Source: a virus. Taken from it: 64,000 bases of DNA. Of the stretch, positions 1 to 63,889 are shown piece after piece. The position numbers were made by a program, and so were the translations under genes. The notes under the pieces were generated by a model that was not told the DNA's origin, ran no database searches, and saw nothing but the letters and a program-made list of their open reading frames with translations. The DNA lies in the IMG/VR virus record IMGVR_UViG_3300032223_002232, positions 1-64,000 of that record, one strand, 5' to 3'. The stretch's first letter is position 1. Each line of letters starts with the position of its first letter.

Positions 1-116
1 GCAGGTATTTTAAACATAGTGTCTTCTCTACCTTCTTTTCTATAAAGTGTTATCCAAGGTTTGTGATTAGTACCTTTATCAATAACACTAGGCTTTGCAA
101 CTATTTTATATTCCAT
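1..116 (-). CDS. hypothetical protein, truncated by window edge
   Basis: An open frame starts at ATG 114-116 and runs off the left edge, so only about 38 N-terminal residues are visible (MEYKIVAKPSVIDKGTNH, then a Trp-Ile-Thr-Leu-Tyr strand and a basic/acidic stretch). It sits 6 nt downstream of the -10 box of a promoter repeat, the same placement as its neighbours, which supports the start. I do not recognise the family. Confidence 0.6.
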   Translation of the reverse strand, partial: MEYKIVAKPSVIDKGTNHKPWITLYRKEGREDTMFKIP

Positions 117-122
117 ATTCTT

Positions 123-151
123 ATTCTATATTTTTTATGAAGAGGTGTCAA
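123..151 (-). promoter_or_regulatory. early-type promoter repeat, copy 1
   Basis: Minus strand: TTGACA (146-151), a 17-nt spacer and TAGAAT (123-128), 6 nt before the ATG at 116. The copy overlaps the last codons of the gene at 135-344, supplying its Asp-Thr-Ser-Ser-stop end. The spacer is a diverged form (CCTCTTCATAAAAAATA) of the repeat consensus. Confidence 0.75.
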
Positions 152-344
152 TCTTGTTTTTAATATGCTCCCAAATTCTTTCATGAACATAGAAGAGAAC
201 AATCTTAGCAAAGAAGTCAAAGACTGATACACCTAATGAGACAAAAGGTTTTCCCGTAAAGAGATAACAGGCAAGAAAAGTAATTAAAGAGCCAAAGATC
301 CTATATGATATAGCTTTGAGTAATGATACAGTTCTAGTTTCCAT
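135..344 (-). CDS. DUF2061 small membrane protein
   Basis: This 69-residue protein carries the features of the DUF2061 family: an N-terminal KAISYRIFGS motif, a hydrophobic segment (about residues 17-30), a second hydrophobic stretch around SLGVSVFDFFAKIVLFYVH and a closing HERIWEHI motif. The family is of unknown function, found in bacteria and sporadically in phages, and is predicted to sit in the inner membrane as a two-helix hairpin. The length matches the usual family size, so ATG 342-344 looks right. Its last codons (KIDTSS) lie inside a promoter repeat for the next gene. Its own upstream repeat copy overlaps the start codon and has a poor -10, which is odd. Confidence 0.8.
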   Translation of the reverse strand: METRTVSLLKAISYRIFGSLITFLACYLFTGKPFVSLGVSVFDFFAKIVLFYVHERIWEHIKNKIDTSS

Positions 345-366
345 GTGCTTTAGGAGGAGGTGTCAA
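338..366 (-). promoter_or_regulatory. promoter repeat, copy 2 (degenerate -10, overlaps start codon)
   Basis: TTGACA (361-366) and the full spacer (CCTCCTCCTAAAGCACA) are conserved, but the expected -10 hexamer reads TGGAAA and overlaps the ATG of the DUF2061 gene. Transcription from it would start inside the coding region. It may be inactive or have another use. Confidence 0.45.
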
Positions 367-392
367 GCTTCATAAAGATTATTCTCATTCAT
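363..392 (-). other. nine-codon mini-ORF between promoter copies
   Basis: ATG (390-392) opens MNENNLYEA and stops at a TGA inside the -35 box of the next promoter repeat. A TAGAAT lies 6 nt before this ATG, exactly the spacing used by real genes here, with TTGAGA 18 nt further upstream overlapping the end of the gene at 397-612. It could be a remnant of a deleted gene, a leader peptide or chance. Confidence 0.25.
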
Positions 393-2976: not shown

Positions 2977-2992
2977 ATGTTTAAAAGTTGAT

Positions 2993-3105
2993 GACTAGGA
3001 AATACTTTTGTGGTACTTCGGACAGGCTACACGTTCATCGTATACTATGCTTCGCTATCACCTGTTGCGGAAGTTCTTTAGCTTATAAGAACTCGCACCC
3101 TAGTC
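2993..3105 (-). ncRNA. candidate structured RNA or 5' leader element
   Basis: The 135-nt gap between two genes contains a closed fold. Outer strands GACTAGG and CCTAGTC pair perfectly over 7 bp (2993-2999 with 3099-3105). Read on the minus strand, the inside holds a strong hairpin (GCG-AGTTCTT with AAGAACT-TC-CGC, loop ATAAGCTA), a 5-bp stem ACAGG/CCTGT enclosing about 34 nt, and a short stem AAGTAC/GTATTT with a 7-nt loop next to the outer stem. It resembles a multi-branch junction RNA. It does not fit a tRNA: no canonical T-loop. Its GC content is above the flanks. Strand is assumed from the genes; the fold exists on both. Confidence 0.5.
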
Positions 3106-3111
3106 AAATTA

Positions 3112-3792: not shown

Positions 3793-4287
3793 TCATTCCC
3801 ACCAGTAAGGTATGTTACCAAGTTTATCCCATTTAGCAAAAGCTCTTTTATCTTTACGATAATATGTTCTATATGCTTCAACAGCATCAATCCTTTTATA
3901 ATCAATAGGCATGGCTTGTGCAAACGGAGTAAGATCACCATCGGGAATTTGATTTTGCATATCAAAAAGTTTCCTGATACCAGATTCACATGAATGAACC
4001 TTACCGTATCTTTTGGTATATTCATCACAAAGTGCCAAACCATGAATAGAAGCCCATACAAAATTTGAACGAGTATCACCACACCAACGAGTACAGGGAT
4101 GATTATGATAACCACCTTTAAGTGGTGTACCATTTTTTGTGAGGGGCATCATATCAGGAGTTGCACCATGACGAATAACAGCAGAACCTAATTGCTGGAA
4201 CAACTCAAGGATCATTTTTACAACATGTTTATCACAATTATAAAATGCTGCTTTCTGTGGATTTCGATCTAAAATGAAAATGTTCAT
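3793..4287 (-). CDS. conserved phage protein of the MNIF..DKHVVKM type
   Basis: This 164-residue protein opens MNIFILDRNPQKAA followed by CDKHVVKMILELFQQLGSA, a pattern I recognise from conserved, functionally unassigned proteins of T4-like phages. Other conserved-looking blocks are HPCTRWCGDTRSNFVW (near residue 63), ALCDEYTKRYGKVHSCE (near 85), PFAQAMP (near 121) and a C-terminal AYRTYYRKDKRAFAKW. Conserved His, Cys, Asp and Glu suggest an enzyme. Some databases may link relatives to DNA repair glycosylases, but I cannot confirm this. It is in the operon upstream of the HAD phosphatase gene with a 1-nt gap. Confidence 0.65.
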   Translation of the reverse strand: MNIFILDRNPQKAAFYNCDKHVVKMILELFQQLGSAVIRHGATPDMMPLTKNGTPLKGGYHNHPCTRWCGDTRSNFVWASIHGLALCDEYTKRYGKVHSCESGIRKLFDMQNQIPDGDLTPFAQAMPIDYKRIDAVEAYRTYYRKDKRAFAKWDKLGNIPYWWE

Positions 4288-4290
4288 ACG

Positions 4291-4539
4291 TTATGATGAG
4301 CGAGGAATATACACCGCAGAAAGATTATAGTCAACAAAAGTATCTTTTGGTAAGAAAGTCAGATCAGGTGCTTCCTGATATTCTCCATCATAATATGCTT
4401 TATCGTCTGGTAATCTTTTAAGATTTTCAATGAGATATATGTTCTTTACTTCATCATATCCAGTTTCATATCCATCAACAACAACTATTTGTTCTGGATC
4501 AAACTTCTGTAAATGTTCTATTAGTTCTTTTACTTTCAT
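4291..4539 (-). CDS. hypothetical phage protein, 82 aa
   Basis: An 82-residue acidic protein starting MKVKELIEHLQKFDPEQIVV followed by VDGYETGYDEV. This N-terminal helix, then a strand with Gly-Tyr-Glu-x-Gly-Tyr-Asp, is a common pattern in small phage proteins of unknown function. It starts inside the stop of the upstream gene (ATGA junction at 4536-4539) and is followed after 3 nt by the next gene, so translation is likely coupled. No catalytic motif seen. Confidence 0.65.
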   Translation of the reverse strand: MKVKELIEHLQKFDPEQIVVVDGYETGYDEVKNIYLIENLKRLPDDKAYYDGEYQEAPDLTFLPKDTFVDYNLSAVYIPRSS

Positions 4540-4832
4540 GGTATAGGTTTATTAGTTCCAATATCTTCTGCTATATATGGTGTATGTAGTTTTATATCTC
4601 TATTAGAAGGATACTCTGTGAATGATACATATCCATCAGTACCCCAAGGATAACCTTTAGAATAATATACTTGTTGAACTTCACCATTAATATTCAATCT
4701 TTGGATTTTATAATAATGAATAGGTACAGAATTTACTAGACATCCACCGATAAGCATAGGTATCATAGCAAAGGCAATTATACCTATTACCACTGTCCAA
4801 CCAAATAAAAATGTTTTAGTTTTATTTGTCAT
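4536..4832 (-). CDS. putative membrane protein or lipoprotein
   Basis: A 98-residue protein with one strongly hydrophobic N-terminal segment (FLFGWTVVIGIIAFAMIPML, about residues 7-26) followed by IGGC, which resembles a lipobox, so it may be a lipoprotein or a single-pass membrane protein. The rest is beta-rich and aromatic (IHYYKIQRLNINGEV; GYVSFTEYPS). ATG 4830-4832 overlaps the upstream stop (ATGA) and is chosen over a TTG 9 nt earlier. Phage lipoproteins of this kind often act in superinfection exclusion or lysis control; that is only a suggestion here. Confidence 0.65.
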   Translation of the reverse strand: MTNKTKTFLFGWTVVIGIIAFAMIPMLIGGCLVNSVPIHYYKIQRLNINGEVQQVYYSKGYPWGTDGYVSFTEYPSNRDIKLHTPYIAEDIGTNKPIP

Positions 4833-5209
4833 ATATTCCAAGTTGATCTATGTCCAGAGTGTCCACAATCATCACAAGAGCTATCACTAAACTCTGTGTC
4901 ATCGCACTGGAAACATTCTACAAGATCTTTGAATGAACAAGTTCCATTCTTGATTCCTTCTTTGAGTTTGATAAGAAGATAGTCTAGAAGCTCATCATCA
5001 TCTTCAGGTTGTTTGACTCCATCTTCTACTTCCCCACTTCTCCATACATCATTGATAGAGAATCCCCAATTGTAGCAAGACATCTCATCATATACAATTT
5101 TGTATTTTGGTTTTGTATCCTTCAATACAAAATCCCTAGGATCATAGTCCTCAAATCCTTGAGGATTTATGTTCTTTAAAACTTCAATAGCTTCTTCTTC
5201 TTCACTCAT
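4829..5209 (-). CDS. hypothetical acidic protein with C-terminal Cys cluster
   Basis: About 126 residues and very acidic. The C-terminal part has a Cys series (CSFKDLVECFQCDD, then SSCDDCGHSGHRS) with two CxxC pairs and two His, suggesting a zinc-binding knuckle. The centre has a helix (DDELLDYLLIKLKEGI). The start is uncertain: ATG 5207-5209 overlaps the previous gene by 8 nt, whereas ATG 5219-5221 would add MEKQ and overlap by 20 nt. I prefer the shorter overlap. The 3' end joins the next gene by ATGA. Function unknown. Confidence 0.6.
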   Translation of the reverse strand: MSEEEEAIEVLKNINPQGFEDYDPRDFVLKDTKPKYKIVYDEMSCYNWGFSINDVWRSGEVEDGVKQPEDDDELLDYLLIKLKEGIKNGTCSFKDLVECFQCDDTEFSDSSCDDCGHSGHRSTWNI

Positions 5210-5363
5210 TTGTTTTTCCATGAAATCGTTCTATTTGATCTTTAGCATCAGCATAAGTTGCTTTAGGATTTTTGTCAATAACTTTTTGAATAGCCTCTTG
5301 TATATCTTGAAAGTCTTGTGCTGTAAACTTATCAACCATTTTTAATAAATCTTTATAGTCCAT
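5202..5363 (-). CDS. small hypothetical helical protein, 53 aa
   Basis: The ATG at 5361-5363 gives MDYKDLLKMVDKFTAQDF and then an amphipathic helix (IQEAIQKVIDKNP) and a second helix (YADAKDQIERFHGK). A TTG 24 nt upstream keeps the frame open but has no other support. The ATG follows the previous stop by one base. All-helical and charged; it could be a small binding or adaptor protein. Not recognised. Confidence 0.6.
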   Translation of the reverse strand: MDYKDLLKMVDKFTAQDFQDIQEAIQKVIDKNPKATYADAKDQIERFHGKTNE

Positions 5364-5973: not shown

Positions 5974-6002
5974 ATACTATTACAGTATTACACTATCGTC
6001 AA
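5974..6002 (-). promoter_or_regulatory. putative sigma70-like promoter
   Basis: TTGACG (5997-6002), 17-nt spacer, TAGTAT (5974-5979), 8 nt before ATG 5965. The TGA inside the -35 box is the stop codon of the upstream 239-aa gene, the same trick seen at 1782. Confidence 0.6.
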
Positions 6003-6718
6003 GTTGTTGTTTGTTGAGCAGCCCTTCTAGGTGATCTTGGTGTTCTTGGTGTAGTTGGTGTTTGAGGTTGAGTTTGCTGTTGGGGTTGAGTTTGTTGTTG
6101 AGGTTTAGCTTGTTGTTGTGGTTTAGCTTGTTGTTGTGGTTGTTGAGTTTGTTGTGATGGTTGATTCTGTGAATTATTATACACATCTTGATTTATCCAT
6201 CCATCAATATCGGTTTTAGTATTACCAACCAATATATAATCAACGCCAACCATTTGATTACCAACTCTTTGTTTAGGACAAATCTGTACAATTTTGTTTT
6301 CTTGTACTATAGCTACCCCTCTATATGTCATATAATTTAAGTTAATATCTGTTGGTGCTACTGGTTTCCATTTGTTTGGGGCATCTACTGTTCTAATAAA
6401 TAGATAATTTGCTGGTGTATTGTTTGCTCCAACTGGTACTATACCGTAATTTCCATTTTGATCTAAACCCTTTACTACCTTGGCTTTATATTGTGGATTC
6501 TTCGACCAAACAGCAACATCATTTTGTTTAGGTGGATTCTCTTTTGAATAGTTATAAGATTGTTTTTTATCTTTTTTCGGACCTTTGAATGGATCATAAA
6601 ATGCATTTGGGTCTTTAACAGTTGCATTAAAGGCTGCTATACCCTCACCAGCACCTTTAATAAGATTGCCTACAAACTCATTTAAAATGCAATTAACCCT
6701 AGAATCAAACTTATTCAT
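5999..6718 (-). CDS. hypothetical protein with Q/P/T-rich C-terminal tail
   Basis: A 239-residue protein. Residues 1-180 look folded (FVGNLIKGAGEGIAAF helix near 15, then strands such as YGIVPVGANNTPANYLFIRT and YILVGNTKTDIDGWINQ). The last roughly 55 residues are low complexity: glutamine blocks in repeats of AKPQQQ and TQPQQQ, then PTTPRTPRSPRRAA. The tail is encoded by 18-nt repeats (about 6060-6150). It is the first gene read leftward from the divergent point at 6.72-6.78 kb and has a late-type TAAATATA element 5 nt before its ATG, so it may be a virion or late protein. Confidence 0.7.
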   Translation of the reverse strand: MNKFDSRVNCILNEFVGNLIKGAGEGIAAFNATVKDPNAFYDPFKGPKKDKKQSYNYSKENPPKQNDVAVWSKNPQYKAKVVKGLDQNGNYGIVPVGANNTPANYLFIRTVDAPNKWKPVAPTDINLNYMTYRGVAIVQENKIVQICPKQRVGNQMVGVDYILVGNTKTDIDGWINQDVYNNSQNQPSQQTQQPQQQAKPQQQAKPQQQTQPQQQTQPQTPTTPRTPRSPRRAAQQTTT

Positions 6719-6723: not shown

Positions 6724-6731
6724 TATATTTA
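6724..6731 (-). promoter_or_regulatory. late-type promoter element
   Basis: TAAATATA in the context GTAAATATAATATAATG, 5 nt before the ATG at 6718. Member of the TATAAATA-like family found in front of structural genes. Confidence 0.6.
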
Positions 6732-9900: not shown

Positions 9901-11541
9901 AAAGCAAGTGGTGTGGAGATAATATCAATGGATCTTGGTTATTACTCGGATCAGAATGATTTAATGGAAACCATAGCTAATGATGGATATTATTATAATG
10001 TTCAAAATTATATATTATATGGTGATGTTAATTTAGATTCATTTAATAGAAGTATATCACTTTCATTGTTAGGTTGTTTCCCATCAATTCCAACTTGGTG
10101 TAAAGCAACTAAAAATAGTGCTGGTGCTTGGGTGGAAAATTATATCGTTTCTGATATGGAATTAAAACCCGGAGATTATTTGGTATATGTTCATAGAGGA
10201 AAGGTTTCATATGTTGGTCAAAATCCAAATGTTTCATTCACAATACCAACAATATCATTTACTGTTAATTTAAAATTAGATGGTTGGGATTATAGTACAA
10301 GTACATTTAATTTATCAGCTGCTGGTGCTGATTATGGTGCAAGACCATTTTGGGCTAAAACACTTACTAACTCTGCAAGTACTTTTGGATTTGGTGGTCA
10401 AATAACATATTATGATGATTATGTTTTAGTACACCAACCCGACATATCTGATATGGTATTGAATAATGGGTGTTACATTCAATATTCCAGTATGGGTAAT
10501 AGAAATGTAAATTGGCAAGAGCATCTTACATTTAATGTAACTTTAACAACTCAACAATGGAATAAATTAATAATAGATAAAAACTATTCTAATTTATCAT
10601 TTGCATTCAATTCTGATAATTTATATGATTTAATTATATCACAATCACATGAGCCTAGTGATTTAACATTAGAGAGTTATTCATCATTTAAACCTGTAAA
10701 ATATAATTATTTTGTAAGAAACTCAGCATTTAACTTTACACAAGACTTGTATTATATAAATCGCTGTGAAACTAGTTTTGTAACATTTACAACTGCTAGT
10801 GTATTAGAAGCAGTAACTCCACATTTAAATCTTGATAATATTCATTACCCAACAGTTGCAACAATTGATTTTCCATCTAATACGGTATCAGAAACTCAGT
10901 TGGGTCATTATTTATTACCAGATAGATTAGGTGTTCCTTATTATTTAGGTAGAGGTTACACTATGAATGTTGATCCTAATAAGTTATCATATATTGATTC
11001 TGTTAGTGCTGAAAGATTATTTTTAGATATTAACAAATATGCATCAAGAAATAGAGGTTTAACTAAAAATGATCAAAATTCACCAGTTTCTATAACAGAT
11101 ATTGATAACAGATGGTTATTTGAGCCATATTCAACAGGTAGTAAATCTGGTATAATTAACAATACTAAAAATAATCAAAAGTTAGTCCCATATCAAACAA
11201 ATTATGAAATAAACCAAAATAATGAAATTGGTTTATGTTATCAGAAGGATAATTTTGAATTTTGGGATGTTAATTATTATAATCAGTGGTCTGATGAATT
11301 AAATTATCCATTATCATTTAGAAAAGAATTAATACTTTCAAGTTATTTTAACAGAGTAGAATCACTTTTAACTAATAAAGGTGTAACAACCCAATGGCGC
11401 ACAGATATATTTGGTAACAACTATGGATTATTTAAAGATTACGATTTACCTGAAACATATCACATTAAGACTGAAAGAGGTGTAAATACAATATCTGAAG
11501 GATATATACCACTTAGTGTTGAAAGTGCTGAGATTGGATAA
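6943..11541 (+). CDS. large virion protein with von Willebrand factor A domain
   Basis: A 1532-residue protein and the first large gene of the only plus-strand block. Residues about 823-1015 form a VWA-like domain: the MIDAS start reads DLVVLIDNSRT (Asp-x-Ser-x-Thr instead of the usual final Ser), and a later strand carries IIIFSDGQET. VWA domains bind metal and mediate adhesion. The rest is beta-rich, low in charge and full of Asn, Ser, Thr and Tyr, typical of tail fibre or baseplate-attached proteins. There is a local Cys pattern (AANCPYG ... TPCNCRS near residues 650-690). No signal peptide. It probably acts as a receptor-binding or tail-wing protein; that role is inferred. Confidence 0.75.
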   Translation: MQTFTNTPALLSYPDWSKSLGVYSDNSQAKYLEYLTDWYKSYSLDQKSIDNNNKIKDQYIQLIKDLNFLFNADERDLFLSDIDYNNTDDLIYIIPYLAHKLKEITQIIAAKREELKNSKFKHGMIGSNLGLEKILYEYVLKNFTKKDYSYTRVPISPLTSFFPELSSISNDFYIEIEELYDTENYHDSDPTVSISNYEPLSAINDYYPFDSLTDDDINNLISSRIIPRIVPTPLSKIFNEYLTSVPTLSTTTLSALSAEYTAKTFNIIAANQKYLGESVYGLTAVRVSELNAPDYTISLNLQQGNNYFYWPSGDKVADDSQIGNIFKPILINNSNFVNNHPVSGSSYLDSDLIFTDKNGILEGAWLQGRRIIQTKDTMSINLVAKDNRSFVFPFVGFNINSKDLSFKSYSLNDSNYILYQTLDKSIKQNILNTYYSNHLPSSAVNDMYLNQTKLIDAGAFAGKFSDESDTLVKTPSANQQTIWSDELLGNVEKSFLFKFNKTDIPISTGFNNILWPLMNYSDGQGSVKNLSLTLDDKTCLPIMLGNTSPAQSMLGCTAGNNFNTSDVIYKVSDNAGNNAIEAAWLGAGNISQLDYTQHIIPVYATSAVNCAEYIDGPIQPSLSFIAQPGEYTSFIWMDKDTPADDVFLYREHAANCPYGQSYPHNFFVNQDYQNPTPLNSGDSFPLTKTPCNCRSIYYSPLGHEGDTFDSYNTMGDLLFADPKGLGADFTVNSWVDTRNFDPHHSPQFSFYQLDGTMDKDVGYGLGKWMTGNGHRMILKTGRRYTYYRSPLRKGVDNNITVPYLITNYAYQNISVNCPSGYAPRIDLVVLIDNSRTETYALDTSKTMAASFCEYALNTNSDILISVISFAEKGLLLNYLTNNKNSVLSHISGIQPTTSSPEWLTDIYGALILANNVLSVNKPLNNNCDITDTTSLCKGLADRILNFSNIPTITNCPRSNAAKKIIIFSDGQETVNIGKAIPIAEKIKASGVEIISMDLGYYSDQNDLMETIANDGYYYNVQNYILYGDVNLDSFNRSISLSLLGCFPSIPTWCKATKNSAGAWVENYIVSDMELKPGDYLVYVHRGKVSYVGQNPNVSFTIPTISFTVNLKLDGWDYSTSTFNLSAAGADYGARPFWAKTLTNSASTFGFGGQITYYDDYVLVHQPDISDMVLNNGCYIQYSSMGNRNVNWQEHLTFNVTLTTQQWNKLIIDKNYSNLSFAFNSDNLYDLIISQSHEPSDLTLESYSSFKPVKYNYFVRNSAFNFTQDLYYINRCETSFVTFTTASVLEAVTPHLNLDNIHYPTVATIDFPSNTVSETQLGHYLLPDRLGVPYYLGRGYTMNVDPNKLSYIDSVSAERLFLDINKYASRNRGLTKNDQNSPVSITDIDNRWLFEPYSTGSKSGIINNTKNNQKLVPYQTNYEINQNNEIGLCYQKDNFEFWDVNYYNQWSDELNYPLSFRKELILSSYFNRVESLLTNKGVTTQWRTDIFGNNYGLFKDYDLPETYHIKTERGVNTISEGYIPLSVESAEIG

Positions 11542-11545
11542 ATAT
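11538..11545 (+). promoter_or_regulatory. late-type promoter element
   Basis: ATAAATAT in the context GATAAATATTAATAACG, overlapping the stop codon of the VWA gene and ending 8 nt before the ATG at 11554. Confidence 0.55.
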
Positions 11546-11553: not shown

Positions 11554-12162
11554 ATGAACTTAAAATTTTCACAATTTAAACCAGCCACAAATCTTGTAGA
11601 TAGTGATGTATTACCTATATTAAGAACTAATGACAATTATGCCATAAGTGCCTTATCCATATTTAATTATATGTCTGGTAATAAATTTAATGAGTTATAT
11701 ACATCATATCAATATTATAGTTCTGTATTTTTAGGATCAAATTCAAATGCTAATTCTGTATTTTCAACATATTCTAATAATAGTTCTTTTTATGTAACAA
11801 CTAATGCCGCTCAAACAATATCTGGTATTAAAACATTTTTCGATTCATCGTTCTTTAAAACATCACTTTCATCTGTTGTGATTTATACACCGAATGGAAA
11901 TTCTAACAATTGGAATGTAGCATCAACTTATGTTTTTAGTAATAGTGCAAGTATTAAAAATGTAACAGATACAGTGAGTAATTCAGCTGGTAATTGGAGT
12001 GATACATATAGTGGGTTTTCTCAATTATCAAGTATTGCTGTTGTTAGTGATATTACAAATACACCATCAGCAACAGCAATTAAAAATATTATAGCAATAA
12101 CACAAACAACATATGATAATCTTATAATAAAAGATCCTTATACTTTTTATATTATATCATAG
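11554..12162 (+). CDS. small tail-fibre-like structural protein
   Basis: A 202-residue protein beginning FSQFKPATNLVDSDVLPILR and then NYAISALSIFNY, a pattern like the N-terminal segments of phage fibres that place a short anchoring region before repeats (a similar plan is seen at the start of the gene at 46654-48723). The middle is Ser/Asn-rich (TTNAAQTISGIKTF is a typical phage-fibre phrase), and it ends IITQTTYDNL-like followed by DPYTFYIIS, a common closing motif of phage fibre proteins. It lies between the VWA protein and the RCC1 protein genes and is likely part of the same appendage. Confidence 0.65.
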   Translation: MNLKFSQFKPATNLVDSDVLPILRTNDNYAISALSIFNYMSGNKFNELYTSYQYYSSVFLGSNSNANSVFSTYSNNSSFYVTTNAAQTISGIKTFFDSSFFKTSLSSVVIYTPNGNSNNWNVASTYVFSNSASIKNVTDTVSNSAGNWSDTYSGFSQLSSIAVVSDITNTPSATAIKNIIAITQTTYDNLIIKDPYTFYIIS

Positions 12163-23065: not shown

Positions 23066-23066
23066 T

Positions 23067-24778: not shown

Positions 24779-24781
24779 ATT

Positions 24782-43668: not shown

Positions 43669-43732
43669 AATCAACTCCCTTAACTTGGCTCATTTTGCCA
43701 TTTTAAAAATATTTTTAATAAAAATGCATTCA

Positions 43733-46639: not shown

Positions 46640-46647
46640 TATTTATA
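46640..46647 (-). promoter_or_regulatory. late-type promoter element
   Basis: Perfect TATAAATA in the context AGTATAAATATAGAATATG, 6 nt before the ATG at 46633. Confidence 0.7.
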
Positions 46648-48729: not shown

Positions 48730-48737
48730 TATTTATA
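48730..48737 (-). promoter_or_regulatory. late-type promoter element
   Basis: Perfect TATAAATA in the context AGTATAAATATTAAAAATG, 6 nt before the ATG at 48723. Confidence 0.7.
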
Positions 48738-50433: not shown

Positions 50434-52130
50434 GGTGTATATGGTGGATAAATTGAAGTGTAGGATGCTAATGAAGCGGATACAGGCCAACGGTAATATG
50501 TACTGAATAAGTTATATAAGTCGGCATTAACAGCTTGTGATACCGCTAGTGCGAATGTATCGCAAGCATTTTCTATATCTGAACCTGATGTAATATTTAT
50601 TTGTTTAATATTACTCCAAGTGTATAATAAGAATTGATCTCCAAATTTATTATATAAATCAAACATGAATGAAGCAAACATATCAGTACCCTGTAACGAT
50701 AATGCATTTGTTGGTGCTATATTATCATAAACTGTATTCATGAAATTATAAGATGGATCTGCTATATATGTATTAATTAAATTAATTACACCATATTTAA
50801 AATCATTGAATGGTGTACCATTAAATGGTGCGCCGTTTACTCCAGCAGAATCCATAGACATAAATCTCATAAATACCGCAAATCCAGTGGTAACCGTTTC
50901 ACTTGGTGTTGCATCAACTCTTCTTAAACTATCAACCCAGAAATTCCTTCCTAATTCATAGAATAATACTTGATCAAATTGATTATTCAAATTAACACCG
51001 CTATAAAGAGCATCCCATGATGATCTGAGTAATTCAATACCAGTTCTACCTAATTCACCACAACCAGAACCACATGTAGTGTTAACAACACTTACAGGAT
51101 CTTTACCTCTTAAAGTTACAAGTGTTAATGGATATTCACCGATTACTCTATAATAGAAGTCATAAGCTTTATCTAATTTATAGATTATATAATCTATTAC
51201 TGCTCGGTTTACATTTATGTTGGAAGGAATTTGTAAAGCTACATTTCTTCCAAGATAAGCTTTCATGTTGTAATTTACACTATCAAAACTTGTATATAAT
51301 GTATCTATTACTAATGAAGGACCATATGGTAGTGTTGGTGTTGGTGTAACCGTTGGTGTATGAGTGATTGTTGGTGTTATTGATGGAGTTGGTGTCGGTA
51401 TTTGTAATGATCTTGTAACTGTTGGTGTTATAGTTGGTGTTACAGTTGGTGTTGGTTGTATTTGTGGAATTGGGTTTAGATCTGGATTTACTATAGTTGT
51501 TTTTTCGTAAGGTATGATCGTTACTTCATTATTAACATTAGCAGATGTTAATGTTTTAAATTTACTAGTAAATGGATAAATATAGTTATAAGGTTTACTT
51601 AATTTATCAGCTGATATAATTGGTTTTGGTTTTAATTTCCAGTTAACCAAAGACATCAATATATTATTTTCATTTTGAGTTTGGAATGTATAAAGAATTT
51701 TATTGTCAGGTCCAAACATTTTAGTTTTTATTAAATGTATTTCATTGAAGAATTTATCAACACCATAATCCATTGGTGGATTTTTTAAATTTAATAAAAT
51801 TGTAAATGTTACAATATCAGAACTACCAAAAACATAAACATTTACATTAACTACATAAGTTGAAAGACTTAAATCTTTTGAATAAAACTCTTTAGTTTTT
51901 GGGTAATTTCTAGGATCACCTATTTCATTTGAAATTGGTAACCTATTATCTGAACCTAAAACTGGTTTAAATTTTACAATATCAGAAGTACCATCACCCC
52001 AAATATACTCAATCATTCTAATTTTATGAGATAATGATAAAGTTCTTGGGTCTATAGTTAAATCAAAAGGGGCATAATCACTAATAATTTGATTATCAGA
52101 ATTAAGATAAACTGTACGATTATAAACCAT
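50430..52130 (-). CDS. virion protein with Pro/Thr linker and degenerate metalloprotease-like domain
   Basis: A 566-residue protein. Residues 1-210 are beta-rich ([36 protein letters not shown]), possibly PKD/Ig-like. Residues about 220-265 form a Pro/Thr linker ([28 protein letters not shown]). Residues about 280-566 resemble the gluzincin-type M60-like peptidase scaffold: a helix [16 protein letters not shown] (near 390) stands where an HExxH site would be, followed by [12 protein letters not shown] and [20 protein letters not shown]. The catalytic His residues appear replaced, so this may be a carbohydrate- or protein-binding remnant. Family assignment is tentative. Its 3' end overlaps the 555-aa fibre gene. 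Confidence 0.6.
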
Positions 52131-52134: not shown

Positions 52135-52142
52135 AATATTTA
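52135..52142 (-). promoter_or_regulatory. late-type promoter element
   Basis: TAAATATT in the context GCATTAAATATTAATAATG, 4 nt before the ATG at 52130. Confidence 0.6.
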
Positions 52143-54899: not shown

Positions 54900-56945
54900 T
54901 CAAGTACAACAATTTGATATAGCTTCACCCCAAGTCTTAGTTGGGGCATAATTTGCTGGGAATGCTTCTGATAATTCAAAATATGTAATTGGATTCACAT
55001 TACATGTTCTAATAACTGGTAATGTAAGATTGTATGATGACATTGCACTCCATGACCAACAGAATTGACCTGCACAATTATTATTGTTACCCACATTAAC
55101 TGAAAAATTTTTAATCTCCAAGAATGTTTTTAAAGTTTCGATTGAATTATAAAGTTTGGCTAACTCTCTGTTAAATACTGATGGTACATGTAATTCATTT
55201 ACACCAATACCAAGAGTTTCATTTTGAACATCAGGATTTAATGTAGGTAATTCTCTTGTAACATCTATAGGTAGCCATGAGAAATATGTTATTATGCCAT
55301 ATTTTGTTTGCTCTGATGCCAGAACAAATTTTGCATTTAATGTTTCTCTGAAAGATTTAATGTTTTGAGCCAATCGAATTAAAGATCTATTATAATTTAA
55401 ATCAGAAGTAAATTCATTGCTTTTTACTGCTAATTGATCATAACTCCAATTTTTACTAGGTAAACCATTACCTAATTTGAAAATTTGTAATACATCTTGT
55501 ATTTTTTGTATACCATAAGGCATACTAATTATAAATGACTTGTTTGGTGATCTTTTAATATTCTTGTATGTAAACGTACTTGCTAATGGTAAATTTAATT
55601 CTGTAATAAAATTACCAGATGTTGAGAATTTAAATACATTTGTATCTGATAAGATATAAAAGAAATCACCATTCTCATCAAAAATTATTTTTTCTAGAGT
55701 TGTGGATTTATCATTTAAAAATGTCAAATCTATTGTTTCAAATAAAGTATTTGATAAATTATCATAAATTAAAATTTTATAATTTTGCGTTAATATGAAT
55801 AGTAATTGAGTTGATGGATGAACTGCTATACTTGTTGGTTTATCTTTATCTAATTCATCAGTTGTATATGTATAAACCCAATTCAAATCAATATTAAATT
55901 GTTTAACACAAAAATTATTGTAATCTAAAACATAAAGATAATTGTTTGAAAGTAAAACTTGTGTTGGTGAATTGAATTTATTATGATCAATAACACTACC
56001 AAATCCACCAATTGATAATTCAATATTAATTTCTGGGTTTACCGTCAAATCAATATTAAATTTATAAATTTTATTTGTTGGTGAATCACAAAGATATACA
56101 GTTTCTCCAGTTGAATCAACATCAAATGATAATGGATCAGCTAATAAATTAGATATATTTGCAGAATTATAAAAGTTTCTTTCAATTGGAATGGCTCCAG
56201 CTGAAAATGCTCTAAATTTAGTTCCATCTAATACATAGATATGATCAGATGTTTGACATGCATCCCTTACATCTGAAAAATAAGTTAAGCCCGAATTGGT
56301 TGCTAATTCTGGATTATTTAAATTAGATGAATTATAAGTTTGTGTAAACCATTTAATACCAGAAGCTCTTGAACCTGAATTATTACCCAACCAACCATAA
56401 TATAATGTTGGTGATGTTATGTTTATTGTTTGAATATTAGAATTCAGATAATCTAATGATTCTTGTAATCTTTTAATCGATGTATTAAAGATATCTTCAA
56501 CACCCCATTCATTTGGTTGAATATTTATTTGTTCTAGTGTATATGGTAGTGTTAATGTTATTTCATTATTAAGTCTTAATTGTTCTTGATTATAAGCATT
56601 CCATTGACTTTCAACCACAAATGGAACTTGTACAACATAAGGGTAATGTGATTGTTGTAGATCATTATAAACTGCCGTATACGAAACATAAAAAGTTCCT
56701 TTTTTAGTATATGTATGGAAAACAGTTTGATTTGGTTGTGTTTGCTGAACTGCTGATGTATCACCAAAATTAGTCAAATAATAAGATATAGCTAAATTTG
56801 GATCATACTGTGAAATTACTGGATTTAAATATTGAACAAATACAGGAGTACCTGTCAAGGTATAAACAGTTGACATGTAAACCTGTTTAGGTACTAAATT
56901 ACTATACGATACTAAATCATGTTCTCCTGTTATTATAATACTCAT
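54900..56945 (-). CDS. virion protein with NHL-like beta-propeller, 681 aa
   Basis: ATG 56943-56945 overlaps the upstream stop (ATGA); a TTG 18 nt upstream is rejected. Residues about 200-510 contain about six propeller-like repeats of the form IYVLDGTKFRAFS, VYLCDSPTNKIYKFN, LYVLDYNNFCVKQFN and LLFILTQNYKILIYD, an NHL/Vgb-type beta-propeller. The N-terminal part reads like an Ig-type domain (VFHTYTKKGTFYVSYTAVYN). The C-terminal part is helical plus a Cys pattern (NNNCAGQFCWSWSAMSSYNL; CCT at the very end). It belongs with the two upstream large genes. Likely a baseplate or tail-fibre attachment protein. Confidence 0.65.
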   Translation of the reverse strand: MSIIITGEHDLVSYSNLVPKQVYMSTVYTLTGTPVFVQYLNPVISQYDPNLAISYYLTNFGDTSAVQQTQPNQTVFHTYTKKGTFYVSYTAVYNDLQQSHYPYVVQVPFVVESQWNAYNQEQLRLNNEITLTLPYTLEQINIQPNEWGVEDIFNTSIKRLQESLDYLNSNIQTINITSPTLYYGWLGNNSGSRASGIKWFTQTYNSSNLNNPELATNSGLTYFSDVRDACQTSDHIYVLDGTKFRAFSAGAIPIERNFYNSANISNLLADPLSFDVDSTGETVYLCDSPTNKIYKFNIDLTVNPEINIELSIGGFGSVIDHNKFNSPTQVLLSNNYLYVLDYNNFCVKQFNIDLNWVYTYTTDELDKDKPTSIAVHPSTQLLFILTQNYKILIYDNLSNTLFETIDLTFLNDKSTTLEKIIFDENGDFFYILSDTNVFKFSTSGNFITELNLPLASTFTYKNIKRSPNKSFIISMPYGIQKIQDVLQIFKLGNGLPSKNWSYDQLAVKSNEFTSDLNYNRSLIRLAQNIKSFRETLNAKFVLASEQTKYGIITYFSWLPIDVTRELPTLNPDVQNETLGIGVNELHVPSVFNRELAKLYNSIETLKTFLEIKNFSVNVGNNNNCAGQFCWSWSAMSSYNLTLPVIRTCNVNPITYFELSEAFPANYAPTKTWGEAISNCCT

Positions 56946-59900
56946 AGTGTTATTTGACTCCAAAGATCAGTATTACCAGTATAATCAGCAGACCCTAATG
57001 GAAATGTTGTTGCTGGTATTTGTTGTATTACATTTGTTGTGGCATATAGATAGTATCTATCCAAACCAGCTAAACCTGTGAATAATGGTATAGCTGGATC
57101 ACCATAACTTAAATTAAATATATTATACGTTCCATTTAATGCAGGAACTGTAGATGATGCAGTCCAGAATTCACTTGATAAAAAATATGTTACAGTACCA
57201 CCAACAACTACCGCTGGACAGTTTTGTGGTATAGTGCAGAGTGTTTGTGTTATGGTTACAGATCTTGATAAATCTATATCTATAATTTTTGTATCAATTA
57301 TATGATTTAAACTTAAATCATTATAAGGTATTATTGTTGGTGATAGATGAAAATTAAGTTCATTATTATCATTATAATCTTGTGTTATTGCGTAATTGTT
57401 AAATGTGAATAAATTAAGAGCACCTGCTGTTGGTGCATAATATGTTGTACCCATTGAAATTGGATATGTTGTTAAATTATAACATTGAAGTGATATAGGT
57501 ATACCAGTGTATATTGATATATCTTGAGGATCATATGCTATATCCATTATATCAAATGATGAACTTAATGTACTTGTATATGAATTGTTAGTATTTGTAT
57601 ATATGTAAGAAATATATGAATTTTTATTAGCAGATAACCAAAATGATTGAGTATTGTTTTTCTTATTACCATAAGCTGATGGTCTAAATGAAAGTGTGTA
57701 GTTGCTTGGGTTTAAGAAAGTTAAAGTTGGTGAATTGTTAATCCATGCATATTCTGGATATAAAATAAAATCTAAAGGTTTATAGAATTCAATTGGATCT
57801 ATTGCATAGAAATATTCTTCAGCACTAACGTTATGCGCACTAGTCCAACCTTGAGCTATAGCTGAATCTAATTTTAATGTTATTTTATATGAAGATAAAC
57901 CTAAAATATTAGAATCAACATTGATAATATGATTTTGATTATCCAACAATTGTGTTGAATTAGTATTAAGATTAGTTAGCATCCATGCTTTATTTTGATA
58001 TTTTATCTTAAATAAAAATTGACTATCATCTACTAATAAGAATGATAAATCGCCAGATGCTGCTCTAGTTATTGTATTTAAACCGTTAAAAGTATCACCA
58101 ATTTCAATACTAGAATAATTTTTATAATATGTTTTAAAATCAGAATTTAATGTGGTTTTATCTGGAAAAGCATCAACATTGAATGTGAATGAACCTGTAA
58201 CAGCTGGTACTCTAACATCAGAATTTGCTGTTACTGTAACCGAATGGATAATTGGTTTTATATCTATATCTGGTAGAACTTTTATTCTGATTGTACTGAC
58301 TAATGCATAATTTGTACTAGCAGCATAGTTATAAAAAATATTATTGTTTAATGGTTCATAGGCTGATATTGGTTGGGTTAATGGATCAATATTATCATCA
58401 TAAGTCCAAGTCCAATATATAGGTGTATTTAAAAATTGAGGTATATCGTATAATCTACCTTGATACGGAACTTGTAATTTTAAATCTATTGATCTTACTC
58501 TTTCAAGATTATTTAGTTGACCTACAGGTGTAACGGAGAATACACCTTCACCAAAATAATCAAATAAAGATGTATTTGTTGTTACAGAAGCAATCTCATT
58601 ATATTTTTGTGATGATAATGAAATTGTTGTTTGTTGTGGACCATATCCAGAAACTGCTAATGTTTCGGTTGTTGGATCGAAATCAAGCTCTTCACCATTA
58701 GTTATATATCTTATAAATTTTTTAGTATCTGTATTTACTGAATATAATTGAACATATGATGCATATGGTGAAACACTCCAAGATATTTTACTATTTGTTA
58801 AATCTCTAGAAGGCCATGCAATTGCATTAGTATTAAATGATGAATCAACTATTATTAAATTTGATTCTTCTTTTAAGATATCCAAAAATAATGTTGTACC
58901 ATTGTTTGTTTCAGTATGTTGTCTGGCTAATACGGCTGATGTTTCTTCAAATGCATCAAGTATTCCAAAATCACCCTTTAACGATGCTCTTATAGCAAAA
59001 TCAATTTCACCATATAATGGTGAATAAACAATATTTAAATAACTACCAGTTGTCGCTGGAATCCATGCTGGATTTTTTAAATCATAATATGTATTGGATG
59101 GTCCATAATAAGCACTCACGGAATTAAGTGCTGTATAGTTATTAATATTTGTAATTGTATATTTTATTTGCTCATTGGTTTTAGTGTTATTATATAAATC
59201 ATAAACTAGAGCATTGTAATCTGATACTATAAATGAACTTAACTGTAAATTTAATGCATAACTAACACCATCTGTTGCTGCTGTGTTTAATGCTGATGTT
59301 TTTAAATAGAAATTAAGATTAAAGGAATCTAAATAATTTCCATCACTTGTATTTAATCTTGTTTTATATGTATAATAGTGTGGTGGGTATGTTGATACCC
59401 ATGACATTGTATTGTTTGATACCGTTGTGGCTAAAACATCTGAATTAATAGTGTAAGGTGTTGATCCAATTTTTATTGAATTAAATGTTCCGATTGCAGG
59501 AGAACCATTTATGTTTAATGCATCTGCGATATAATCAAAGTATATATTTGAATTTGAAACTCCTGTTGCAGCATTTGATGAATTATCAAATGTAAATTTA
59601 GAATTTGAAAGGTCTAATTTACATTTTAAAATTGCATTTGATTCAGCACCCAATGGTAATGATGGTGTACTTGGATATTGAATTAATTGATATTCTTGTA
59701 TAGTATTAACCGTTGGATCATAGTTAGTAATATAACTAGTTGTAAATGTATATGATGCGGCTGCTAAATAAGAATATGGATGCTGTTGCGAGATAATTAC
59801 TTTATTACCATTTGGATTAATAAATGAAGCACTATAACTTATAAAAGTTGAATCGGGATTTACTTTAACTGTATCAGTTTCAAATTGTGTAGCATATACC

Positions 59901-60643
59901 GCTGGATTATAATTGCTTGAAAAATTAGAAGGTAGAACTTGAACACCCATTCTTGTTCTTGATGCACATACAGAATAATTTAACGTATATGTTGCATCTA
60001 ATAAATTAGATAATGAACACAATTGAGGAACATTACTAACATAATTTTTATGAATTGGATATGCATCTTTTTCAAAACTATTTGAGGAAACAAATATAGC
60101 ACTCCAAGCCATGATTTTTGTAGTAGTTGATAAATTCCAATATCCTGTGTTTATATCCTTTTTAAGTGTTGTTGGATTTAAAAATAATCTATTTGGATAT
60201 AACAAATAACCATAACAATCATTTATATTTGGATCATTTTGAATATAAAAAACTTGAAACTCTTGTGGAGTTTTATATTTTTGTCTTAATGCTGATATGT
60301 TAAAATAAGATGTTGAATATGCATTTAACTGAATAGTATTTAAATCTTCGGCATAAAAAATATTTGAATTTGTTTTAAAATTAGCATTTGAAGAAAGATA
60401 TGTATTACTTGTAGTTGCATCATAATAAAGTATTGCTGATGTATTTTTAGGATTAAGAATATCAACATTTAAGAAATCTAAAATTTCATTAGAAGGTCTT
60501 TTTTGATATCTAAGGATATTAGTAAATAAAAAATCACGATTTGTTAAATTAAAGTAATCAACATTGACAGCAGATTTATACTGTTCATTAGGATAAGGAA
60601 CATCATTAAATAAGCTTATGTTGTATGCTTGTATGTAACTCAT
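56942..60643 (-). CDS. very large beta-rich tail/baseplate-type protein, 1233 aa
   Basis: A 1233-residue protein dominated by short beta strands with many Asn, Ser, Thr and Tyr. Its N-terminus reads QAYNISLFNDVPYPNEQY. Regions such as YLNIVYSPLYGEIDFAIRAS, TYDDNIDPLTQPISAYEPLN and KPIIHSVTVTANSDVRVPAV suggest a string of Ig- or FN3-like domains. It contains no enzymatic motif I can identify. It is preceded by TAAATATT 7 nt before its ATG and overlaps the NHL gene by ATGA, so the two are made from one mRNA. Probably a baseplate or tail appendage scaffold; family not recognised. Confidence 0.6.
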   Translation of the reverse strand: MSYIQAYNISLFNDVPYPNEQYKSAVNVDYFNLTNRDFLFTNILRYQKRPSNEILDFLNVDILNPKNTSAILYYDATTSNTYLSSNANFKTNSNIFYAEDLNTIQLNAYSTSYFNISALRQKYKTPQEFQVFYIQNDPNINDCYGYLLYPNRLFLNPTTLKKDINTGYWNLSTTTKIMAWSAIFVSSNSFEKDAYPIHKNYVSNVPQLCSLSNLLDATYTLNYSVCASRTRMGVQVLPSNFSSNYNPAVYATQFETDTVKVNPDSTFISYSASFINPNGNKVIISQQHPYSYLAAASYTFTTSYITNYDPTVNTIQEYQLIQYPSTPSLPLGAESNAILKCKLDLSNSKFTFDNSSNAATGVSNSNIYFDYIADALNINGSPAIGTFNSIKIGSTPYTINSDVLATTVSNNTMSWVSTYPPHYYTYKTRLNTSDGNYLDSFNLNFYLKTSALNTAATDGVSYALNLQLSSFIVSDYNALVYDLYNNTKTNEQIKYTITNINNYTALNSVSAYYGPSNTYYDLKNPAWIPATTGSYLNIVYSPLYGEIDFAIRASLKGDFGILDAFEETSAVLARQHTETNNGTTLFLDILKEESNLIIVDSSFNTNAIAWPSRDLTNSKISWSVSPYASYVQLYSVNTDTKKFIRYITNGEELDFDPTTETLAVSGYGPQQTTISLSSQKYNEIASVTTNTSLFDYFGEGVFSVTPVGQLNNLERVRSIDLKLQVPYQGRLYDIPQFLNTPIYWTWTYDDNIDPLTQPISAYEPLNNNIFYNYAASTNYALVSTIRIKVLPDIDIKPIIHSVTVTANSDVRVPAVTGSFTFNVDAFPDKTTLNSDFKTYYKNYSSIEIGDTFNGLNTITRAASGDLSFLLVDDSQFLFKIKYQNKAWMLTNLNTNSTQLLDNQNHIINVDSNILGLSSYKITLKLDSAIAQGWTSAHNVSAEEYFYAIDPIEFYKPLDFILYPEYAWINNSPTLTFLNPSNYTLSFRPSAYGNKKNNTQSFWLSANKNSYISYIYTNTNNSYTSTLSSSFDIMDIAYDPQDISIYTGIPISLQCYNLTTYPISMGTTYYAPTAGALNLFTFNNYAITQDYNDNNELNFHLSPTIIPYNDLSLNHIIDTKIIDIDLSRSVTITQTLCTIPQNCPAVVVGGTVTYFLSSEFWTASSTVPALNGTYNIFNLSYGDPAIPLFTGLAGLDRYYLYATTNVIQQIPATTFPLGSADYTGNTDLWSQITL

Positions 60644-60650
60644 GTTTAAT

Positions 60651-60658
60651 AATATTTA
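60651..60658 (-). promoter_or_regulatory. late-type promoter element
   Basis: TAAATATT in the context CTAAATATTATTAAACATG, 7 nt before the ATG at 60643. Confidence 0.6.
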
Positions 60659-60673
60659 GGTGCAAACAACAGA

Positions 60674-63600
60674 TTATGCAAGTGTTGTTGGGAAAACACC
60701 CAATCCTCTGTATAAATCATAAGAAAATAACCTATCTATGGTTTTTTCATTTGCAACCCATTGATAATTACTGGATAATGATTTGTTTATACTTGTTTGT
60801 TTATTGTTCCAATCAATTATACCATCGACCTGAGTATTATTAAAATTTGGAATAAATTCAAAGAATTCGTAGTAACCTTGCCATGCTCCACCAGTTGGGC
60901 CATTTAAATTCAAATAGTCAACAAGTAATTCAAGTGGATATGATGATAAACTGTTAATATAACCAGTATTTACTAATTCAAATTTATTTAATGATTTTGT
61001 TTTTAACACTATAGGTGTACCTGCACTTACTTGATATGTTGATGAATTTAGCGGTTCACCTCTATTGAAAATACCATCGGGTGATGATGTTGCAAAATTA
61101 TTTTGATCAAATGAATTTGACCCCCATAAAATTGATTGATTAATACTCAATATATCCATTAATCTTTTCATACTTGATGGGTAATATAATTTATAATCAT
61201 TTGTATTTTCATTTACAGCATTTGCTAAACTGTATAACTGATCAATATTACATGTATCTACATCAGAATTGTTAATTACAAAATTTGAAATTTTTTCATA
61301 TGCATTGACACCTAAATCACTATGTTTAAATGGTGCTGAACCGAATATAGTTGGTAAAAATTTATTATAAAGATAAACACTCTCTTGTAAAACTGGCATA
61401 AATGAATAACTTTTCATCTGGTCAGATAAATCAAAATTTTCATTAATTTTGAATAAATCTAACCTTGCATTTAAATATGAATTTGTTGTATTTTCTTGAG
61501 TTTGAACTAAAATTTGTTTAAAATCATTTGTTTCTAAATATTTGTAAAAAGTATTAACTAAGAAAGCGTCTTCACTAACAAGACCTGATGATGAAACTGC
61601 ATAGAAATCTAATGCTGTTGATTTACCAGATAATTGAATAGTTTTTAAATTTGATTTATCATCTTTTAAAATATAATCGTTTAATATTGAATACTTGTTA
61701 TTCCACCTCATTGATGTCCAATCACCATAAGCTTGAGCCGATTTATTCCATTGATTAATTTCAACTTCAGTTGAACCATCTTCAGTTTTATTCCAAAATA
61801 CTTTACCTTGTGGGTTTACATAGAATTTATCAACAAAAGTTCTAGTTTTACTATTAAAAATATAAACTCTATTTTCAACTGAATTTACAATATAGATAAA
61901 TCCTCTTGTATCACAAGCTATACCTTCTAATGCAGTATCATCAGTGTTCTGTTCTGGTATTATTGAAGGATATGGTGCATATTTTGATAAGTCACTATAA
62001 TCTAAAACATTAAATGTAGAAACTAAAGATGTAGTTGTATCAATATACCCAACTCTACTATAGCTATATGTAAACCACGGATTTTGATTTATATCAATCG
62101 TTAAATTATTAATACCTCTTATTGAATTAAAAGAACTTAATAATAAACCATTGGTATCTCTTTTTTCAAGAGTTCCTTTAGAATCCCAAATATTATTTGA
62201 TAGTGCTACCCATATGTTATCATTTGCATCAACAACAATATCTTGTGGACAAGAACATACTGGATAACTTATAGTTGTTAAAATATTACCATTAGTATCA
62301 TATTTTATTAATAAACCGCTTACATAATTTGAATAAGTTACCCATACATTGTTTTGTGTATCAGTATCAATATATGTTGGTTCTATGAAATTTTCAAAAC
62401 CATCATCATGTATATATGATTCATTTTCATTATACCAATCTGAATTTATATTAGGAACTTGATTTTGTATCGAACTTAATGGACTTACTGCAAATTTAAA
62501 ATTTCCAGCACTATCAAATTTTAAAACTGATAATGTATCATATAATGTCATCCAAATGTTTTGATCACCATCTAATACTATAGATGCTGGTGAAATAGCA
62601 TTAGTAACATAATGTTCAAGATTATTTTTATCAATAACTTTGTTTATATTTATTGCATTTAATATTTCACCATTTGAAGAAAATTTATAAAGATAATTTA
62701 ATTCACCATCACAAGCCCAAGCTTGATAATACGGTGATGGTAAAGCTGCAATACTATTAATGCCATGATAGCCCACTGTATTGAATGATCCTTTATTGTT
62801 AAAATCTGGATCAATAACAACTGGAACTTCAAAATTAAAAATTTGTATTTTCGGTAAACTTTTTAAATCTAAATCTGGGAAATTTTGAATAAAGTTATAT
62901 TCAAATAACGCCATTAAACCTGCATTTGGATTTGATATCCAAAGTTTTGGCATATATGTATTACCATTCAAAGGTGGAATACTAACAGTAGCTTTTGCAG
63001 TTAATGTTACAGATAACGTTGTTATTTTTGGCGCATAAAAATAATTTTTATTATAACCAGAACTTAAATAGTTGTCATTGTTTTTATATGTTATGTATTT
63101 AGGATCTAAAAATGATGATTGTATTGTGGGGTTATAACATTCTATGTATACTGGATTATCATCTTGTGAATATGGATTAGATTTGCAAAAGTTTGATTCG
63201 TATGCATATGGGGTTATACCATTACCATCTAATTCAATAGAACTATATTTTTTATTCCAATTTAAAGAAAAAACAATTGGCTGTTTAACATAATACCATC
63301 TTGGATTTATAAAATCTCTAATTCCATTTTCAGAAATTTTTATATAGTCTGGTGGTCTATATGTAAAAACGTGTGGTTGGTATGCTATGGTTTTACTATT
63401 ACTAAAATTTGTAGAAAGTATATGATCTGATTGAGAATCGAAATATTGAATTCCACTTATAGCTAAAGTTGCAACTATTGTACTATATGGTTTGTTATTG
63501 CATAATAAATCAAAATTAAACCAATCATCTACAAAGTAAAATTCCGCATAGCCACTAACACCAATAAAATTTCCACTAATAGTATTTATATATCCATTAT

Positions 63601-63889
63601 CATCAAGAAATAATCTAGTATCAATAGTTTTGACTGTATCAATTTTATTTTGATTTAAATCTAAAAATTTGCATTCTGGTCTTAAAAATGACCATTTACT
63701 TGGTTTTAATTGTGTATCATATGATTTAGAATATAATGATGTTAAACTAATAATATGATCATTGTCATTAGATGAGGTTATTATGACCCTAAATGGATAA
63801 CGATTTAAATGACCAGCAAAGGTTGGTGGAGGTGTGTAATCAAAATATATTGATTCATTCAATAATGTTGGTGTCGGAAGAGCTTGCAT
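60674..63889 (-). CDS. virion protein with Vgb/NHL-type propeller, 1071 aa
   Basis: A 1071-residue protein. Residues about 370-740 hold repeats like AWACDGELNYLYKFSSNGEI, IVLDGDQNIWMTLYDTLSVL, NNVWVTYSNYVSGLLIKYDT, IVVDANDNIWVALSNNIWDS and RGFIYIVNSVENRVYIFNSK, the pattern of virginiamycin-B-lyase/NHL propellers. The lyase's catalytic residues cannot be judged. The first 350 residues are beta-rich with a Pro/Tyr start (YFDYTPPPTFAGHLNRYPF). The last 300 are helical, containing YKLYYPSSMKRLMDILSI and GGAWQGYYEFFEFIPNFN. It starts one base after the previous stop and probably helps form the same tail structure as the next two genes. Confidence 0.65.
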   Translation of the reverse strand: MQALPTPTLLNESIYFDYTPPPTFAGHLNRYPFRVIITSSNDNDHIISLTSLYSKSYDTQLKPSKWSFLRPECKFLDLNQNKIDTVKTIDTRLFLDDNGYINTISGNFIGVSGYAEFYFVDDWFNFDLLCNNKPYSTIVATLAISGIQYFDSQSDHILSTNFSNSKTIAYQPHVFTYRPPDYIKISENGIRDFINPRWYYVKQPIVFSLNWNKKYSSIELDGNGITPYAYESNFCKSNPYSQDDNPVYIECYNPTIQSSFLDPKYITYKNNDNYLSSGYNKNYFYAPKITTLSVTLTAKATVSIPPLNGNTYMPKLWISNPNAGLMALFEYNFIQNFPDLDLKSLPKIQIFNFEVPVVIDPDFNNKGSFNTVGYHGINSIAALPSPYYQAWACDGELNYLYKFSSNGEILNAININKVIDKNNLEHYVTNAISPASIVLDGDQNIWMTLYDTLSVLKFDSAGNFKFAVSPLSSIQNQVPNINSDWYNENESYIHDDGFENFIEPTYIDTDTQNNVWVTYSNYVSGLLIKYDTNGNILTTISYPVCSCPQDIVVDANDNIWVALSNNIWDSKGTLEKRDTNGLLLSSFNSIRGINNLTIDINQNPWFTYSYSRVGYIDTTTSLVSTFNVLDYSDLSKYAPYPSIIPEQNTDDTALEGIACDTRGFIYIVNSVENRVYIFNSKTRTFVDKFYVNPQGKVFWNKTEDGSTEVEINQWNKSAQAYGDWTSMRWNNKYSILNDYILKDDKSNLKTIQLSGKSTALDFYAVSSSGLVSEDAFLVNTFYKYLETNDFKQILVQTQENTTNSYLNARLDLFKINENFDLSDQMKSYSFMPVLQESVYLYNKFLPTIFGSAPFKHSDLGVNAYEKISNFVINNSDVDTCNIDQLYSLANAVNENTNDYKLYYPSSMKRLMDILSINQSILWGSNSFDQNNFATSSPDGIFNRGEPLNSSTYQVSAGTPIVLKTKSLNKFELVNTGYINSLSSYPLELLVDYLNLNGPTGGAWQGYYEFFEFIPNFNNTQVDGIIDWNNKQTSINKSLSSNYQWVANEKTIDRLFSYDLYRGLGVFPTTLA

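Follow-up and report, generated by a model that had tools for sequence, protein, structure and literature searches.

The 64,000-nucleotide (nt) window analysed here comprises bases 1–64,000 of the 169,763-base virus record IMGVR_UViG_3300032223_002232 from IMG/VR; the remainder of the record was analysed as well. Two classes of promoter in this phage genome were found to be locked to the start codon, so that the predicted transcription start (+1) coincides with the AUG or lies only a few nt from it. Judged from sequence, most genes standing first behind a promoter are very probably expressed from leaderless messenger RNAs (mRNAs), and the genes downstream of them by coupling. A first-pass annotation of the window had proposed leaderless or near-leaderless initiation together with coupling, and this proposal gained support from the position of the promoters, their exact spacing, a cut-off at a leader length of zero, Shine-Dalgarno (SD) motifs at chance level, conservation in relatives and the contrast with T4. 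The layout noted in the window extends to the whole phage lineage.

Promoter boxes in register with the start codon

A total of 983 genes, from this genome and from eight relatives, were analysed, with a single gene caller applied to all genomes. Counts were anchored on genes, and significance was assessed against shuffles that keep dinucleotides; gene-anchored counts alone were used because the bare string TAAATA-N5-ATG lay near its control in several genomes. The two start-locked classes are TTGACA-17-TAnnnT, of the host sigma-70 type, and (N)TAARTA, the T4 late box. TAAATA lies 5–16 nt before the start of 33 genes in the genome, compared with a shuffle mean of 3.8 (maximum 11), and TTGAC at −38 to −31 precedes 14 genes, compared with 0.5 (maximum 4). 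Across the nine genomes of the clade, the late box was counted 143 times against 18.9 in shuffles (maximum 33) and TTGAC 65 times against 3.0 (maximum 9). Enrichment of (N)TAARTA at starts included structural genes. TAAGTA was a second, strongly enriched late-box form, present in 95 genes of the nine genomes as against 175 for TAAATA. The box-bearing starts listed were all ATG, which the gene caller used favours.

In sigma-70 promoters the −10 element extends to about −7. The T4 late box spans 8 base pairs (bp), with its first base at −13 from +1 (PMC2988020); it therefore ends at −6, so that the modal position in the clade corresponds to leader 0. Predicted leaders for TAARTA in the nine genomes were −2 nt in 3 cases, −1 in 9, 0 in 64, 1 in 57, 2 in 39 and 3 in 18. 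For sigma-70 promoters, counted when at least 10 of 12 positions matched, they were −1 in 2 cases, 0 in 36, 1 in 20, 2 in 11 and 3 in 7. Both distributions start abruptly at zero, below which the full AUG is lost from the transcript, and this cut-off is the strongest single argument that the sequences offer for leaderless use. Of the 57 cases with a predicted leader of 1 nt, 34 have T at the predicted +1, and the A of the ATG may therefore be the real start there. A −10-like signal about 10–12 bp before the start is a published sign of leaderless bacterial genes (PMC3160421).

SD motifs 5–12 nt before the start were found in 90 genes of the nine genomes, compared with 89.3 in shuffles. The whole-genome count was likewise within chance (20 genes against 14.8 in dinucleotide-preserving shuffles, maximum 26). 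The first-pass annotation had seen clear SD sites at about two genes of the window, and both are real: a strong AGGAGG at 2645–2650 before the gene 2466–2636, and an SD-like GGGAG at 43675–43679 before the 2533-residue gene 36067–43668 (both on the minus strand). These two are exceptions to an otherwise SD-less rule, the few weak 4-mers being at chance level.

Sorted by what precedes the start, the 50 genes of the window comprised 14 with a late box, 7 with a sigma-70 promoter, 18 overlapping or abutting an upstream stop (within 3 nt), 6 at a gap of 4–20 nt and 5 others; for the 180 genes of the whole genome the numbers were 51, 25, 64, 13 and 27. The overlap of operon-internal starts with stops, also noted at first pass, is thus borne out. 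As an example, most starts in the minus-strand gene run 3793–5363 lie between −20 and +3 nt of the upstream stop, overlapping or abutting it, and have no promoter box, and in a second, mostly coupled run on the same strand (22181–28797) most starts overlap or lie within 3 nt of the upstream stop.

From these features we infer the 5′ ends, initiation at a 5′-terminal AUG and coupling. Early genes would be transcribed by the host RNA polymerase from sigma-70 promoters that set +1 at the first base of the ATG. Late genes would be transcribed by the host core polymerase with a phage gp55-type sigma factor at the T4-like TAARTA box, with +1 on the A of the ATG or 1–4 nt before it. Ribosomes would initiate at the 5′-terminal AUG without SD pairing, and operon-downstream genes would be translated by termination–reinitiation at overlapping or abutting stop and start codons. 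Leadered, SD-led expression would apply to a small number of genes, foremost the major capsid gene gp23. A homologue of the late sigma factor gp55 was identified at 103326–104048 of the record (phrog_234, E = 9.9e-27). Neither gp33 nor the sliding clamp gp45 was recognised in the scanned proteins, among which no search was aimed at either.

Some points weigh against this interpretation or limit its scope. The 27 of 180 genes (15%) without a box or a near upstream stop are not accounted for by it, and the late box at 35593 lies at a gap of 4 nt, implying a leader of −1 or a shifted +1. Gene starts were first-ATG calls by a simple gene caller. Moreover, the layout is not universal, as some genes look leadered and SD-led from their sequences, the most notable being gp23, which lies outside the window.

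The early promoters of the window are on the minus strand. Eight similar cassettes (TTGACACCTCCTCCTAAAGCATATAGAAT), conserved in the spacer too, lie within 123–2482, one per small early gene, and some upstream genes terminate within a cassette. Gaps of 6 nt claimed for the starts at 116, 612, 1478 and 2447 were exact, each promoter reading TTGAYA-17-TAGAMT. The first (123–151) has its −35 TTGACA at 146–151, a 17-bp spacer and its −10 TAGAAT at 123–128, with the predicted +1 on the A of the ATG at 116. A predicted leader of 0 was also obtained for the promoters at 619–647 (TTGACA-17-TAGACT, gap 6; gene 397–612), 1485–1513 (TTGATA-17-TAGAAT; gene 1293–1478) and 2454–2482 (TTGACA-17-TAGAAT; gene 1782–2447). 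Predicted leaders were 3 nt for 1281–1309 (TTGACA-17-TAGAAT; gene 1038–1271), 5 nt for 1009–1037 (TTGATA-17-TAGGAT; gene 704–997), where a TAAATA also stands at predicted leader 0, and 10 nt for 1757–1785 (gene 1519–1740), where a late box TAAATA at 1746–1751 stands at predicted leader 0. The early spacer CACCTCCTCC, which resembles the 16S tail, was set aside as a translation signal, as the spacer lies upstream of the predicted +1.

The late boxes located individually in the window are also on the minus strand, apart from the TAAATA at 11539–11544 on the plus strand (gene 11554–12162, predicted leader 4). TAAATA is found at 6726–6731 (gene 5999–6718) and 36038–36043 (gene 35608–36030), both with predicted leader 2. 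The (C)TAAATA form stands at 20627–20632 (gene 19829–20620, leader 1), 32272–32277 (gene 28799–32263, leader 3) and 60653–60658 (gene 56942–60643, leader 4), and (T)TAAATA at 52137–52142 (gene 50430–52130, leader 1). Boxes reading TATAAATA are located at 46640–46647 (gene 46265–46633) and 48730–48737 (gene 46654–48723), each with predicted leader 1, and at 35598–35605 (gene 35168–35593), where the predicted leader of −1 makes it an exception to the cut-off. A gap of 4 nt had been reported for the starts at 35593, 20620 and 52130; it holds for 35593, while the other two measure 6 nt with the T4 box aligned. Similarly, the 6-nt gaps reported for 46633 and 48723 are correct, and that for 32263 becomes 8 nt on the same alignment.

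Relatives, known systems and the gp23 leader

The gene content assigns this aquatic phage to the T4 superfamily, with the T4-type core genes gp17, gp19, gp23 and gp43 present. Domain searches identified the terminase large subunit (gp17), a B-family DNA polymerase (gp43), the major capsid protein Gp23 (E = 6.8e-89) and the tail tube protein gp19, and also matched UvsX, UvsY and an SbcD-like subunit in the record. Compared with cultured phages, the polymerase is only about 30% identical, with cyanophages and the Pelagibacter phage HTVC008M as the best matches, and the terminase is nearest to rhizobial T4-like phages (34%). Many close relatives are present in IMG/VR, with terminase identities of 63–87%; tail-fibre and small-gene queries against IMG/VR found no relatives, and a terminase search of genome contigs gave no match.

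Orthologous genes retain box and ATG start despite differing intervening bases. Directly before the ATG of the gp19 gene, a GATAAATATTA-type box is present in nine of nine genomes, and the proteins align from residue 1. In a wider contig set collected through gp23 (65–70% identity, 56 loci), SD motifs were at control level and predicted late leaders peaked at 0 (26, compared with none at −1).

The same pipeline was applied to other phages. The late region of T4 showed SD motifs in 38 of 54 genes and late leaders of mostly 12–23 nt, and P-SSM4 showed them in 33 of 94 genes, with leaders of mostly 14–26 nt. For phiM9 and XG4 the SD fractions were 0.67 and 0.50, and no late box was closer than leader 10. 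Among polymerase relatives at 27–32% identity, 53% of genes had SD motifs, and near boxes were absent. The clade thus shares with T4 late transcription a gp55 homologue, a TATAAATA-type box and the division into early sigma-70 and late promoters, whereas its box, variable as (N)TAARTA, lies directly against the ATG and accompanies SD motifs at chance level, T4 being leadered and SD-rich.

The cultured, T4-like Pelagibacter phage HTVC008M (NC_020484) shows a mixture. About a dozen of its late genes, for example those at 6280, 18943, 19456, 31132 and 75830 of its record, have an (A/C)TAAATA box that ends exactly 5 nt from the annotated ATG, mostly in the form TATAAATAG-N4-ATG, and so at predicted leader 0 as in the clade. 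Unlike the clade, it has SD motifs in 62 of 115 genes (54%), an SD-led majority, and shows no enrichment of sigma-70 promoters locked to the start. Having a start-locked late promoter is therefore not a property of SD-less phages alone. A pelagimyophage survey had reported no success in predicting late promoters for that group (PMC7029224).

Single leaderless phage mRNAs such as that of lambda cI share the 5′-terminal AUG, there in one gene and not genome-wide. SD-scarce Bacteroidota share the absence of genome-wide SD enrichment, but they have a different type of promoter and, as a rule, leadered mRNAs, whereas the sigma-70 and T4-late boxes of the clade abut the start. Leaderless genes of Actinobacteria and Deinococcus-Thermus likewise have a −10 about 12 bp before the start codon and lack an SD motif; they make up about 20–40% of cellular genes (PMC3160421), whereas the present case concerns a phage, two promoter classes and no genome SD enrichment. 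One report describes leaderless transcripts as frequent among phages generally (PMC5312081). A literature search, with most subscription journals outside its reach, returned no description of leaderless late genes in T4-like phages, an absence that is no proof.

A strong SD precedes 17 of 980 clade genes, compared with 6 expected from flanking control windows. Among them is gp23 (record 68865–70346, minus strand), which carries ATAGGAGGACAAAAACAAATG; a similar motif is present in the relative G017. Two counts of gp23 loci in IMG/VR gave an SD in 24 of 43 and 33 of 57, with neighbouring genes at 12–14%, near control. Many gp23 leaders hold a stem that changes in sequence on both sides and is flanked by GTTG and by TGAG or CGA, as judged by eye. 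Rfam held no match to the stem, and the region is put forward as a candidate structured capsid leader. A conserved 209-residue gene of unknown function (record 149763–150392 and orthologs) has a strong SD in three clade genomes.

We tentatively suggest, at somewhat less than even confidence, that a large and widespread aquatic lineage of the T4 superfamily has abandoned SD-led initiation and set both promoter classes at +1 = AUG. An SD-bearing, often hairpin-bearing 5′ untranslated region would be reserved for gp23, setting capsid translation apart during infection.

Alternative readings and the host

It is possible, though we think it improbable by about three to one in plain terms, that the layout reflects a host whose own genes are not SD-led, perhaps an SD-scarce member of the Verrucomicrobiota; this would be compatible with leaderless use. 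Three genomes share a 43-nt stretch of the tRNA-Ala of G017: two from Verrucomicrobiota and one an alphaproteobacterial metagenome-assembled genome (MAG). In sampled contigs, the two Verrucomicrobiota MAGs have SD motifs at or below control, and one of them shows −10-like boxes at leader −1 to 3 (7, compared with at most 3 in other bins). SD-scarce Verrucomicrobia have also been reported (PMC10783764). Nevertheless, the alphaproteobacterial MAG carries the same stretch, a tRNA-Ser search placed Verrucomicrobiota no closer than Pseudomonadota, no related terminase was found among 388 Verrucomicrobiota genomes, and HTVC008M has predicted leaderless late genes amid SD-led ones. SD-scarce Verrucomicrobiota as hosts are a weak lead. 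As to SD usage within this phylum, the genomes G032, G034 and G058 showed no SD enrichment in sampled genes, with start-locked −10-like boxes in G032, and others (G040, G117) use SD.

The boxes might also drive transcription while most protein comes from longer readthrough transcripts of upstream promoters, leaving leaderless 5′ ends as a minor species. Many box-bearing genes lie 4–59 nt downstream of a same-strand gene, and coupling would serve longer transcripts. This is unlikely, as the +1/AUG register has been kept by selection in hundreds of genes, which is hard to explain if the transcripts are untranslated.

Less probable still is that the A/T-rich boxes are translational enhancers on leadered, SD-less mRNAs, with true promoters farther upstream. 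SD-less initiation with upstream adenines as a signal is normal in Bacteroidota (PMC10783764), and the phage genome is A/T-rich. Nevertheless, a −35 TTGACA at 17-bp spacing has no translational meaning, TAAATA outnumbers every permutation of its letters at the same position before starts, and the cut-off at leader 0 is seen in both promoter classes. Boxes occurred at 3% of overlapping or abutting starts, compared with 36–47% of other starts, and TTGAC followed the same direction, although overlapping coding sequence also constrains the possible bases. Genes that overlap or abut would need an enhancer too; because boxes are almost absent there, they are taken to act as promoters.

Mis-called starts, with true starts at downstream in-frame codons behind leaders and ribosome-binding sites, would fit first-ATG calls but are highly improbable: equal start offset of both proteins was by far the commonest value in 293 ortholog alignments, boxes in HTVC008M precede starts annotated independently by GenBank, and an SD stood at the first internal ATG in just 4 of 78 genes of this genome (5%), so SD-led starts are not hidden downstream.

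Other features and significance of the proposed leaderless layout

Several further features were noted. In the predicted fold of an intergenic segment at 2977–3111 of the window (minus strand), a closing stem encloses three hairpins (−35 kcal/mol, z = −3.3); none of 200 shuffled versions reached this stability. The segment had no Rfam or phage match and is a candidate non-coding RNA on the basis of the modelled fold. The 2533-residue open reading frame at 36067–43668 had no Pfam match and lies in a region of raised G+C content (0.41 in 36–40 kb) and strong strand skew. A glycosyltransferase (23067–24320) matched solely giant Xanthomonas and Stenotrophomonas phages (3 records, 47–48% identity), and a subtilase-family protease and an RCC1/beta-propeller-repeat protein are encoded at 32312–35161 and 12172–15174. 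Elsewhere in the record, at 166490–167485, a 331-residue adenylosuccinate synthetase-like protein (E = 4.8e-81) is shorter than the 416-position Pfam model and is possibly a PurZ-like base-modification enzyme.

T4 is the textbook of phage gene timing, with late genes that depend on SD-led mRNAs carrying leaders. In a related lineage where promoter and start codon are fused, the gp55 late system would prove open to rewiring for leaderless translation. The layout points to hosts with ribosomes that work without SD pairing. The register predicts exact transcript ends for many genes of uncultured phages and may improve start-codon and promoter annotation where late promoters had gone unfound, as in the pelagimyophages. 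Because HTVC008M is cultured, the leaderless idea is directly testable.

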